Part shown: positions 35,857 to 40,090 of the stretch, one piece after another
Layout of the letters: each line of letters opens with the position of its first letter
Numbering within the stretch: position 1 is the stretch's first letter
Source: Merdibacter massiliensis
Lineage (GTDB): Bacteria > Bacillota_I > Bacilli_A > Erysipelotrichales > Erysipelotrichaceae
Reading direction: 5' to 3'
Length of the DNA: 64,000 nt
Assembly: GCF_900155395.1 (NCBI RefSeq)
Contig: NZ_LT699728.1
Span: 248,001-312,000, forward strand
Position numbers and translations under genes: made by a program
Notes under the pieces: model-generated
What the model saw: only the letters and a program-made list of their open reading frames with translations
Told to the model about the DNA's origin: nothing
Databases searched by the model: none

Positions 35857-36789
35857 TCAATTTTTATCCGATTCACGTAAAATTTCAATTTCGATCTGGT
35901 CTGCCAATTGTTTTACAGCTTCTCCTTTCGCAATGCCATAGGTAAAAGCACTTGCACTTCCAGCTGCCAATCCCATCCGGAAAGCTTCTTTATAATCACC
36001 ATGTTGCAGCCATCCATACAAGAAGCCGGCAGTCATCGAATCACCGCAGCCAATCGTGCTGACGACAATGCCGTGTGCACTTTTTCCATAATAGATAGCT
36101 CCCTGTTCATCAAGCAGATAAGCCCCGTCCCCTCCACAGGAAACCAATACATTTTTTACACCTTTTTGCTGAAGGGCCTGCATGCTGGAAAATAAGATGC
36201 CCTCTTTCATCGGACATTGAAATACTTCTTCAAGTTCATGAATATTGGGTTTTATCAGAAATGGTTTTTCCTTGATGGCATGCAGCAGGCTTTCCCCATT
36301 CGTATCCACGACGCACAATGCGCCGTTTGCTGAAACCACTTGCATCAATTGTGCATAAAAAGTTGCCGGTATGCTTTTTTGAACGCTCCCGGATAAGATC
36401 AGGATATCGCCTTGTCCTAAAGAAGACAGAGATTCAATCATTTTCGTTAATTCTTCCTGATCCGGCTGCGTCCCCTGTCCGTTGATCTCGGTTTCTTCTT
36501 CTGCATTGATTTTAATATTGATTCGGGTAAATCCATTCTTCACCGGCAGAAATGCTGTCCGCAAACCCATCGCTTGGACACCGGCCTCATACATCTGTGC
36601 GGTCTCGCCGCCAATAAATCCATAAGCGATCGAATCCAATCCTAACTCTTTTAACATAAGAGATACATTGATGCCTTTTCCCCCATAAATCAGTTTTTCA
36701 TCTTTTGTACGCTGCATCGCGCCCAAAGTTAATGACTCTAGTTTGATCATGTAATCCAATGACGGATTGACTGTTAATGTATAGATCAT
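35857..36789 (-). CDS. 1-phosphofructokinase-like PfkB family sugar kinase
   Basis: A 310-residue kinase of the FruK/LacC group. Start MIYTLTVNPSLDYMIKL at 36789 has AAAGGAGG upstream. YGGKGINVSLMLKELG is the PfkB first signature, and STIGCGDSMTAGFLYGW is the second, with the catalytic aspartate. These enzymes phosphorylate fructose-1-phosphate or tagatose-6-phosphate. No fructose PTS gene or FruR adjoins it, so the substrate is open. Its promoter lies in a 53-base segment that was copied when the neighbouring IS inserted. Confidence 0.88.
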   Translation of the reverse strand: MIYTLTVNPSLDYMIKLESLTLGAMQRTKDEKLIYGGKGINVSLMLKELGLDSIAYGFIGGETAQMYEAGVQAMGLRTAFLPVKNGFTRINIKINAEEETEINGQGTQPDQEELTKMIESLSSLGQGDILILSGSVQKSIPATFYAQLMQVVSANGALCVVDTNGESLLHAIKEKPFLIKPNIHELEEVFQCPMKEGILFSSMQALQQKGVKNVLVSCGGDGAYLLDEQGAIYYGKSAHGIVVSTIGCGDSMTAGFLYGWLQHGDYKEAFRMGLAAGSASAFTYGIAKGEAVKQLADQIEIEILRESDKN

Positions 36790-36856
36790 AGTTTCCTCCT
36801 TTTGCACATTGCAAATTCTGAGCTTCACTGACTATATTTACAGCATATTTCAATAT

Positions 36857-36909
36857 TATTATACTATGCACCAGTTCACCGTCAAGCGCCATTTCATCGA
36901 CAAAATATA
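36857..36909. repeat. Left copy of the 53-bp target duplication
   Basis: Identical at all 53 positions to 38815-38867. It directly abuts the left inverted repeat of the IS1634-like element. Confidence 0.95.
36858..36885 (-). promoter_or_regulatory. Promoter of the PfkB kinase gene
   Basis: On the minus strand TTGACG (36885-36880), a 16-base gap and a perfect TATAAT (36863-36858) sit about 62 bases before the kinase start. The whole promoter is inside the 53-base direct repeat flanking the IS. Confidence 0.75.
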
Positions 36910-38814
36910 CCCGTCTTTAGAGGTTTGCACCATGAATGTTTAGAGGCTATTCTGAGAAAAAGTCGAGATTATCCAGTATTTATCGTTGTTTTTTGTACTT
37001 TAAATTTATTTTATTTTTTTTATTTATTTGATATAATTATGGTGTAAATGTGTAATGCTTGGAGGACACTTTCTATGGCCTATTTTCTTAAAAAAACAAA
37101 ACGAAATGACAGACTTTATCTTTCCATCTATGAGAGTTTTTATTCTCCAGAAACTAAAAACACTCGACATAAAAGTTTTCGTAAAATCGGTTTCGTTGAT
37201 GCTCTTATCGAACAGGGTATAGATGATCCAATCTCTCATTTTCAGAAAGAAGTCAATGAACTGAATTCTAAACGGGAGACAGAAAAGTGTCGCATCAACT
37301 TTCAACAGATTTCCGACATTTCACCAGAACTGTGTCTGGGTTATGTGCCAATTGCGAAAATCTTGAACATGCTGGATGTAAAAGAACATTTTGGGTATTT
37401 AAGTTCTTCAAGGAAATTCGAGTTCGATGTATATGATGTCTTTTCCGCTCTTGTATATGCTCGTGTTGTTGCGCCTTTATCTAAACATCAGACTTTTCAT
37501 GATATTCTTCCAAAGCTATCTGTTCAAAAAAACTTCAGTTATGATCAACTCCTAGAGGGCTTGGAATTCATGGGCGAAGAATATGAGAAACTGGTTGAAA
37601 TACTGACCGTTGCGACTGATGACAATTTTATTCTGGATTCCAGCCGTTCTTATTTTGATTGTACAAACTATTATTTTGAAATCGATAAGGAATCTACTCT
37701 TCAAAAAAGAGGGCCTTCCAAAGAAAATCGAAGAGACCCTATTGTGGGAATGGGCCTTCTTTTAGACGCACAGATGTTACCAATCGGCATGAAGATATTC
37801 CCAGGCAATGAATCTGAAAAGCCGGTCATGCGTGATCTAATCCACGATTTGAAATCAAGAAACAATATCAAGGGCCGTACCATCCAAATAGCTGATAAAG
37901 GCCTTAACTGTGCTAAAAATATTATTGAAGCTATTGATAATGGAGATGGCTATCTGTTTTCGAAATCTGTAAAAACCCTTCCTGAAAGAGAAAGACAATG
38001 GGTTCTTCTTGATGACGGATTCGAAACAGTGTTTGATCAGAACGGAGAACCCGTTTATAAAATCAAGGAATGCATCGATACGTTTACTTATTCATACAAG
38101 GATGAATATGGGAATGTAATAACTCGTAATATAAAAGAAAAAAGAACAGTTACCTATAACTTCAGTCTCGCAAAGAAGAAACTGATGGAAATCAATAGAA
38201 TGATTGAAAAAGCCAAGGCACACCGTGCATGCCAGGCCAAAAAAGAAGAATATGGTGAATCATCAAAATATATGCAGTTTCTAGATGATCAGGGGAAAAG
38301 TATAAAACCCCAGCTAAATCAAAAAGCTATAGACAAAGACAAAGAACTAGCCGGATATAATATGCTCGTAACATCTGAAATCAATATGTCATCAAAAGAC
38401 ATATACAATGCTTATCATCAGCTTTGGCAAATCGAAGAATCCTTCCGCATCATGAAGTCCGAACTTGATACACGTCCGGTCTATCTACAAAAAGAAAATC
38501 GGATCAAAGGTCATTTCTTCATCTGTTACACAGCCGTGTTATTATCACGAATCCTTCAATTCAAGATTCTGGAAAATAAATACTCAGCAAGTACAATATA
38601 CGATTTCATGAGAAAATTTCGAGTTGTAAGAATCAACTCAACAAGATTCATAAATCTATTAACCAGCAAAGAATTCGTAACAGATCTATCCAAAAAATTA
38701 AATCAACCAATAACAAATTATTATCTAACAGATAAACAAATAAAAATGATGCATACTCGATAATCAAATATCGAGTGTTGCACCATTTTTTACTATTCAA
38801 CCTCTAAAGTCAGG
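36910..38814 (+). mobile_element. IS1634-like element (IS4 superfamily), 1905 bp
   Basis: Bounded by imperfect inverted repeats: CCCGTCTTTAGAGGTTTG at the left and, as reverse complement, CCTGACTTTAGAGGTTGA at the right. The single transposase gene is intact. The flanking 53-bp direct repeat fits what is known of IS1634, which makes unusually long and variable target duplications. A perfect duplication and an intact gene indicate a recent insertion. Confidence 0.9.
37075..38763 (+). CDS. IS1634 family transposase
   Basis: A DDE transposase of about 562 residues. The start is probably the ATG at 37075 (MAYFLKKTKRN), which has GGAGGA upstream; an ATG at 37048 is in frame and would add nine residues. 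Catalytic region candidates are SYFDCTNYYFEID (first Asp), IADKGLNCAKNII (second Asp) and HQLWQIEESFRIMKSELDTRP (Glu in the conserved IEESFR context). No frameshift or stop is seen, so it is likely functional. Confidence 0.9.
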   Translation: MAYFLKKTKRNDRLYLSIYESFYSPETKNTRHKSFRKIGFVDALIEQGIDDPISHFQKEVNELNSKRETEKCRINFQQISDISPELCLGYVPIAKILNMLDVKEHFGYLSSSRKFEFDVYDVFSALVYARVVAPLSKHQTFHDILPKLSVQKNFSYDQLLEGLEFMGEEYEKLVEILTVATDDNFILDSSRSYFDCTNYYFEIDKESTLQKRGPSKENRRDPIVGMGLLLDAQMLPIGMKIFPGNESEKPVMRDLIHDLKSRNNIKGRTIQIADKGLNCAKNIIEAIDNGDGYLFSKSVKTLPERERQWVLLDDGFETVFDQNGEPVYKIKECIDTFTYSYKDEYGNVITRNIKEKRTVTYNFSLAKKKLMEINRMIEKAKAHRACQAKKEEYGESSKYMQFLDDQGKSIKPQLNQKAIDKDKELAGYNMLVTSEINMSSKDIYNAYHQLWQIEESFRIMKSELDTRPVYLQKENRIKGHFFICYTAVLLSRILQFKILENKYSASTIYDFMRKFRVVRINSTRFINLLTSKEFVTDLSKKLNQPITNYYLTDKQIKMMHTR

Positions 38815-38867
38815 TATTATACTATGCACCAGTTCACCGTCAAGCGCCATTTCATCGACAAAATATA
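38815..38867. repeat. Right copy of the 53-bp target duplication, carrying a second promoter
   Basis: Identical to 36857-36909. It contains TTGACG-N16-TATAAT on the minus strand (38843-38816), pointing into the right end of the IS and so antisense to the transposase gene. Confidence 0.95.
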
Positions 38868-38868
38868 G

Positions 38869-38896
38869 AAAAAACGATGAAAATCCCATCGTTTTA
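38869..38896. terminator. Terminator after the CDF transporter gene
   Basis: AAAACGATG and CATCGTTTT pair across a seven-base loop with A and T runs. It overlaps the stop codon of the minus-strand gene. Confidence 0.8.
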
Positions 38897-40090
38897 TTTG
38901 TCTCCTTCTTCTCTTTTTTCATCACTCGTATAGGCGTGATCGAAAGTGATCACTGCATAACATTCCGGTCGCTGTTCATGAACCAGATCTGTGATCTGTT
39001 TCATCAATTGTTCATCTGAGCTCGCGATGCCAAAAGGAACGACCACATCAAATATCATATTTGTATGCGTGGTCCCCGGCACTACTCGAAAATCATGAAA
39101 AGTCAAACGGCCATCCACTTTATCCAAGATCTTGCGTACCATTTCTTTCAGCTCATTTGTAAGTGCATCATCCGTACGGATCGGATCCATATGGACGACT
39201 GTTTCAATACCCATTTCTTCTTTGATCTCTTTTTCGATATTATCCACCATGTCATGGCTTTCAAAAATATCCCTGCGATAATCGACCTCCACATGGACAC
39301 TGACAAACAGGCGATTCGGTCCATAATCATGCACGATCATATCATGGACACCTAAGACCCCGTCATATTTCTTTATACGCTCATAGATTTCCTGTACCAG
39401 TTCCGGATCAGGCGCCTTTCCTAATAAATCATCTAATGCGCTGCGGATAAGCGAGATCCCTGTATAAAGGATAAATGCGGCTACGATCATGCCCATATAG
39501 CCGTCCAGATTAAATTTTAGAACCGGTGATAAGATTGTAGATAACAACACCGCACTGGTTCCTAACACATCCGAAAGAGAGTCTGCAGCTGTTGCTTCCA
39601 ACAGTGAAGAATGCAGACGTTTTCCATAAGCATGATTATAGGTATACATCCAGACCTTTACCAAGATCGATGCCAGCAGCACGATGATCGCTACCCATGA
39701 GAATATAATTTCTTCCGGATGCAAGATTTTTTGAAAACTCTGCTGAACCATCTCTACTCCTAAATATAAGATCAATACAGCGACCAATAAAGAAGCAAGA
39801 CATTCATATCGTGCATGACCAAAGGGATGTTTGGCATCTGCCGGACGGCTGGACAAACGAAAACTGATTAAAGAGATGATGGAACTTCCTGCATCTGATA
39901 AGTTATTGATTGCATCTGCTGTAATAGATACACTGTTTGCTAAAGTACCCGCAACAAATTTAAAAATGCACAAAAAAACATTATTGATCACTCCAACAGT
40001 AGCTGTTACATTCCCGATTGCCTTGCGGACATGTTCATTTTCTGTTTGTTCATGATCTTTTACAAAAAAGCGGACCAATAAACGCATCAT
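38894..40090 (-). CDS. Cation diffusion facilitator (CDF) family transporter
   Basis: A 398-residue metal exporter driven by proton exchange. About six membrane segments occupy residues 25-220. The metal site motifs are SITADAINNLSDAGSS in TM2 and ATAADSLSDVLGTS in TM5, both with the HDxxD-like spacing used for Zn, Mn or Fe (here NLSD and DSLSD). GHARYECLASL follows TM2. The C-terminal domain (about 225-398) is cytoplasmic, with two repeats of a ferredoxin-like fold, one more than usual. Metal preference is uncertain. Now located just downstream of the IS target repeat, with the IS on its 3' side. Confidence 0.9.
   Translation of the reverse strand: MMRLLVRFFVKDHEQTENEHVRKAIGNVTATVGVINNVFLCIFKFVAGTLANSVSITADAINNLSDAGSSIISLISFRLSSRPADAKHPFGHARYECLASLLVAVLILYLGVEMVQQSFQKILHPEEIIFSWVAIIVLLASILVKVWMYTYNHAYGKRLHSSLLEATAADSLSDVLGTSAVLLSTILSPVLKFNLDGYMGMIVAAFILYTGISLIRSALDDLLGKAPDPELVQEIYERIKKYDGVLGVHDMIVHDYGPNRLFVSVHVEVDYRRDIFESHDMVDNIEKEIKEEMGIETVVHMDPIRTDDALTNELKEMVRKILDKVDGRLTFHDFRVVPGTTHTNMIFDVVVPFGIASSDEQLMKQITDLVHEQRPECYAVITFDHAYTSDEKREEGDK

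Follow-up and report, generated by a model that had tools for sequence, protein, structure and literature searches.

The insertion sequences IS1634 and IS1549 are flanked by direct repeats of variable length, ranging from 8 to 514 bp, for which no mechanistic model has been proposed (PMC2266710), and the literature searched on these two elements gives no target rule. Most members of the IS1634 family carry repeats of 5–6 bp (PMC2266710, PMC3281130, PMC8024623), and the family is described as having AT-rich target sites (PMC3281130, PMC8024623). Binding to the beta sliding clamp has been reported for one IS1634-family transposase (PMC4549789); that clamp binding could bear on a long stagger is speculation on our part. 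Targeting of promoters is known from TnGBS, ISLre2 and the ISKra4 group, which insert upstream of the -35 box, and has been interpreted as limiting the cost to the host (PMC3942029). Herein, we describe an IS1634-family element of Merdibacter massiliensis, located in a window of 64,000 nucleotides (the whole stretch of DNA analysed), together with related insertions in other genomes.

Results and discussion

The element and its flanking repeats

The element between the flanking repeats (Table 1) measures 1,905 bp, has imperfect inverted ends (left end CCCGTCTT; right end, as reverse complement, CCTGACTT) and holds a single long ORF of 571 aa. The ORF matches the NCBIfam model of the IS1634 transposase, NF033559, with 347 bits (cut-off 100), in agreement with the family assignment of the first-pass annotation, as well as Pfam DDE_Tnp_1 (PF01609) with 44.8 bits (cut-off 23). 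Only IS1634/IS4/IS701-type and DDE_Tnp_1 models match. The frame is open from position 37048, the ATG at 37076 being the start deduced from the sequence. Length and ends fit the IS1634 rule (1500–2000 bp, ends C-----YT). The target duplications, 53 bp at this locus and 63–64 bp at a second copy, do not fit the 5–6 bp of typical family members; judging from their length, they are instead in line with the long-repeat members IS1634 and IS1549 of the same family. The second full copy in the source genome shows five differences in 1,905 bp and is located immediately upstream of tRNA-like gene sequence. Three additional right ends were found in this genome, each at a contig end.

A repeat search showed that the two flanking copies are identical at 53 of 53 positions, and a genome search with pfkB and the left copy matched the 53-mer at these two sites only. 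Both copies carry TTGACG-N16-TATAAT on the minus strand, and these were the top promoter-like matches in a scan of 2.4 kb, with 11 of 12 consensus bases. The identical flanks and the duplicated promoter sequence had been pointed out in the first-pass annotation, as had the direction of the right copy, into the 3′ end of the element and antisense to the transposase; the repeat search and the scan bear this out.

The target gene encodes a PfkB-family kinase for which a start codon at 36789 is more probable than the GTG at 36828, given that the match to the family model sets in at ORF residue 15. Three genomes of the genus are present in the collection, including the source genome. In the two congeners (loci L260 and L261) the junction between pfkB and the cation-efflux gene is free of an insertion and carries one TTGACG-N16-TATAAT each. 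The surrounding sequence has diverged from that of the window, with hexamers and spacing unchanged. This conservation at uninterrupted loci supports the attribution of the 53 bp repeat to a target duplication and of its promoter to the conserved pfkB promoter. A long target duplication and a left copy serving pfkB had both been claimed at first pass, with an empty site already containing two copies as the stated objection; at the level of this species comparison, both claims hold and the empty site has a single promoter.

Table 1 Features of the insertion locus (positions in the window)
Feature	Position	Strand	Remarks
PfkB-family kinase (1-phosphofructokinase/hexose kinase), target gene	35857..36789	-	PF00294, TIGR03828/TIGR03168
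Left copy of 53 bp target duplication	36857..36909	.	Retains pfkB promoter; 100% identity; single copy in congeners
Left promoter	36858..36885	-	-35 TTGACG 36885-36880, spacer 16, -10 TATAAT 36863-36858; reads to pfkB
IS1634-family insertion sequence, 1,905 bp	36910..38814	+	Second full copy and three right ends elsewhere in genome
Left terminal inverted repeat CCCGTCTTTAGAGGTT	36910..36925	+	
Candidate -10 TATAAT, putative promoter of the transposase itself	37032..37037	+	No good -35 seen; absent from promoter-scan list
IS1634 transposase	37076..38763	+	NF033559, PF01609; likely start ATG 37076 after GGAGG
Predicted bidirectional intrinsic terminator	38742..38790	.	Overlaps transposase stop codon; from folding
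Right terminal inverted repeat AACCTCTAAAGTCAGG	38799..38814	+	Abuts -10 box
Right copy of 53 bp target duplication	38815..38867	.	100% identity
Right promoter	38816..38843	-	-35 TTGACG 38843-38838, -10 TATAAT 38821-38816; reads into 3′ end of element
Terminator-like hairpin of upstream gene	38871..38895	-	Separates upstream gene from promoter
Cation diffusion facilitator transporter, upstream neighbour	38894..40090	-	PF01545, TIGR01297

A -10 motif at the right junction

All right flanks of the element in the source genome (5/5) start with TATnATA, and on account of this shared sequence the targeting test was made. Loci of IS1634-family transposases were collected from relatives at the rank of genus, family, order and class, and additionally by scanning species genomes. 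Direct repeats around elements with inverted ends were detected by script, and duplicates were removed. A discovery set of 37 insertions served to find the motif, 12 insertions found later constitute an independent set, and 36 insertions of Mycoplasma-type elements were used for comparison. Another 18 right junctions came without a left end, a few of them resting on short matches. Control DNA was taken from 20 kb stretches of three of the host genomes. The target duplications span 27–831 bp over the 49 non-Mycoplasma insertions and 14–422 bp in the Mycoplasma-type set (n = 36).

In the pooled right junctions the hexamer ATTATA, i.e. the reverse complement of TATAAT, is evident as A43 T43 T40 A45 T48 A55 of 56, counts that are inflated by choosing the best of five registers for each site. 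A -10-like hexamer (score of at least 6) was identified at 46 of 67 right junctions vs. 8% of intergenic positions examined over the same range, and about a third of the right junctions are without a clear -10 hexamer. When a two-part promoter score was calculated for the strand that points into the element, the right junctions were found above the control of 107,894 intergenic positions both for the 37 discovery insertions (p = 2e-11) and for the 12 independent ones (p = 1e-5). At the left junction, this score remained at control level on both strands (p > 0.5) and no target word was found.

Mycoplasma-type elements (n = 36) show no -10 preference, their scores being near control level at both ends, and a rule for the whole IS1634 family was rejected on these grounds. 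In a maximum-likelihood tree of 43 transposases, a branch with a support of 100/99 sets the 29 non-Mycoplasma sequences apart. As membership in the class goes along with host and end sequence, the tree shows that the trait is confined and not the time of its origin.

Several loci deviate from, or add to, this picture. In a Spirochaetes MAG (L054), TTGACA-N16-TATAAT is located inside the duplication with the junction ~13 bp downstream of the -10 box, not at it. The genome G041, from the same order, has ~20 IS1634-family transposase matches, spread over several subgroups, and offers a natural setting for testing the targeting rule. Here, two different IS1634-family elements (L017 and L137, G041:C1, about 959800–967200) have a common target start, TATTATAATGGATG, the duplications being 181 and 265 bp long, which is suggestive of two insertions at one promoter. 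Near-identical copies (98–99% at the protein level) from Amedibacillus dolichus and Faecalibacillus faecis (L150, L151, L040, L041, L073 and L039) have a common right flank, TACTATACTATC..., of at least 100 bp. Two A. dolichus copies differ in the left flank, as if the element had moved together with DNA past its right end.

Promoter or target word

The motif may be explained by a transposase that merely prefers an AT-rich TATNATA word, in which case promoters are struck since the word resembles a -10 box. The strong motif at the right junction agrees with this explanation, and so does its almost palindromic form, the plus strand at the right junction also scoring above control. Moreover, a recognisable, correctly spaced -35 box is visible at no more than a quarter to a third of the sites, and several insertions fall within ORFs. 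Conversely, the strand reading into the element outscores the opposite strand, and the sites are enriched in -35 boxes. A TTG at exactly 17 nt is present at 9 of 37 junctions with a good -10 box vs. 3.8% of intergenic -10-like sites (p = 1e-5). After inclusion of the independent set, the count is 10/46 vs. 5.1% of promoter-oriented -10-like sites upstream of ORFs (p = 2e-4), and when spacings of 16–18 are allowed, 14/46 vs. 10.4% at the latter type of site (p = 4e-4). Relative to these matched -10-like controls, a properly spaced -35 TTG is 3–4 times commoner at right junctions. We therefore regard recognition of the word alone as a possible but rather doubtful explanation; it would affect host promoters the same way.

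Gene context was analysed for the same insertions. Of the 32 intergenic discovery cases, 28 have a left gene pointing away from the -10 box (p = 1e-5), its predicted start lying at a median of 44 bp, and the orientation of the right neighbour is balanced (16:17). For the left gene, the independent set yields no significant bias (6/10). Taken together, the -35 excess and the gene orientation in the discovery set suggest that true promoters are hit in many cases, though perhaps not in all. A separate observation concerns the Mycoplasma-type insertions (e.g. L196, L210 and L289), most of which have genes directed at the element, the left gene in 21 of 25 cases and the right gene in 18 of 25, i.e. 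convergent gene ends. Some of the segments duplicated by Mycoplasma-type insertions resemble terminator hairpins.

A predicted terminator inside the right end

The hairpin that overlaps the transposase stop codon comprises 49 nt, located 25–73 nt inside the right end. Folding energies of -23.5 kcal/mol (z -7.6) and -20.6 kcal/mol (z -8.1) were calculated for the antisense (minus) and sense (plus) strand, respectively, and on either strand the hairpin has an A-run ahead and a U-run behind. Hairpins with z below -3 were detected at 29 of the 34 right ends examined, some of which are closely related, and a T-run of at least four at the antisense exit in 25 of 34. In most elements the hairpin is located 20–80 nt inside the right end, the sequences being mostly different. 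We predict that the hairpin terminates the transposase message and also transcription from the captured promoter; most antisense RNA from the right promoter would end after about 70 nt.

The first-pass annotation had further suggested that the right copy may silence the transposase. This is judged unlikely because the predicted bidirectional terminator separates the right promoter from almost all of the transposase gene. The same feature speaks against the view that a long duplication picked up a promoter through a single accident and that antisense transcription from the right copy now shuts the transposase down. This view describes the geometry and the promoter sequence correctly, and IS1634 and IS1549 are known to make long duplications of variable length (PMC2266710). 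However, the register at the right end recurs in the source genome and in many others, for which reason chance duplication of a promoter was rejected, and we consider an accident of this type very unlikely. What had been overlooked is a general rule: judging from the junctions, -10 targeting by the clade makes the promoter configuration recur across insertions.

Survivorship, i.e. random intergenic insertion of which only promoter-keeping cases persist, is hardly credible, since selection could produce the low number of duplications below core-promoter length (1/49 in the clade vs. 9/36 in Mycoplasma-type elements) but cannot set a hexamer 1–2 bases from the right junction while the left junction stays motif-free.

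Proposed insertion mechanism

Based on where the motif lies and how it is oriented, on the motif-free left end, the -35 excess, the orientation of genes next to the discovery insertions and the terminator-like hairpins, all of which are read from sequence, we consider it highly probable that the elements form a promoter-targeting IS1634 clade. Here, the right end would be placed at the -10 box and the upstream DNA duplicated, so that the host promoter is kept, with the spare copy being blocked by the terminator. In the proposed sequence of events, the right end (IRR) would join at, or a few bases downstream of, the host -10 box, with the promoter mostly reading into the element, and the left end would join the opposite strand at a site upstream of the promoter, at a distance of tens to hundreds of bases. 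Repair would then copy the stretch between the two joined ends. The copy on the gene side is expected to keep the -10 box, the -35 box and some upstream DNA, and the insertion would act as if it were located upstream of the promoter. As the duplication starts at the -10 box and is nearly always longer than the core promoter (at least 38 bp in 48 of 49 insertions), the target gene should keep its promoter. The far copy, corresponding to the right copy in Table 1, would keep the native upstream DNA, its -10 box abutting the element. This spare copy would fire antisense into the element, and the bidirectional terminator should stop it. In the window, the promoter hit would be that of pfkB.

A site at or just downstream of the -10 hexamer lies within the transcription bubble. 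The transposase may locate the -10 box by reading TATAAT directly, or it may bind a promoter that is melted or occupied by RNA polymerase. It is conceivable that the clade targets the promoter itself, possibly as the -10 bubble opened by RNA polymerase, with transfer of the right end into the -10/-5 region and joining of the left end to the opposite strand far upstream, the host promoter being rebuilt each time and the antisense promoter blocked by the terminator of the element. We put this forward tentatively, as a suggestion we hold to be somewhat improbable. If true, it would give the unexplained long repeats of IS1634 and IS1549 a fixed anchor and a polarity.

With regard to the proposed promoter-targeting clade in general, a right end fixed at the -10 box combined with a free left end gives the long-duplication process a testable polarity, and the insertions could serve as natural promoter markers in gut Bacillota.

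Comparison with known systems

The elements of the clade resemble IS1634 and IS1549 in their NF033559 family transposase, similar size, and duplications of tens to hundreds of bp. They differ from the Mycoplasma-type copies (n = 36), which are without the -10 motif, have a different gene context and are separated from them in the tree by a branch with full support. ISPfe2 and ISGka5 are members of the same family with AT-rich targets; unlike the element described here, they have short fixed repeats, and promoter targeting is not reported for them in the accessible portions of the sources (PMC3281130, PMC8024623). No report of -10 or promoter targeting by IS1634 elements was found in the mostly open-access literature searched. 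Within this scope, -10 targeting appears to represent a new target specificity within a known family, as supported by the independent data.

The closest functional analogy is to TnGBS, ISLre2 and ISKra4, where sigma-A promoters are hit in one defined orientation and the right end adjoins the promoter (PMC3942029). These elements employ prokaryotic Mutator-like (p-MULT) transposases and thus belong to another superfamily than the element in the window, which has no Mutator-like match. The outcome differs as well. The proposed mechanism would offer a way for a transposon to enter promoters without destroying them, unlike the strategy of TnGBS to remain upstream of the -35 box: TnGBS inserts 15–17 bp upstream of the -35 box and no promoter is captured, whereas in the clade described here the right end is found at the -10 box and the promoter is duplicated.
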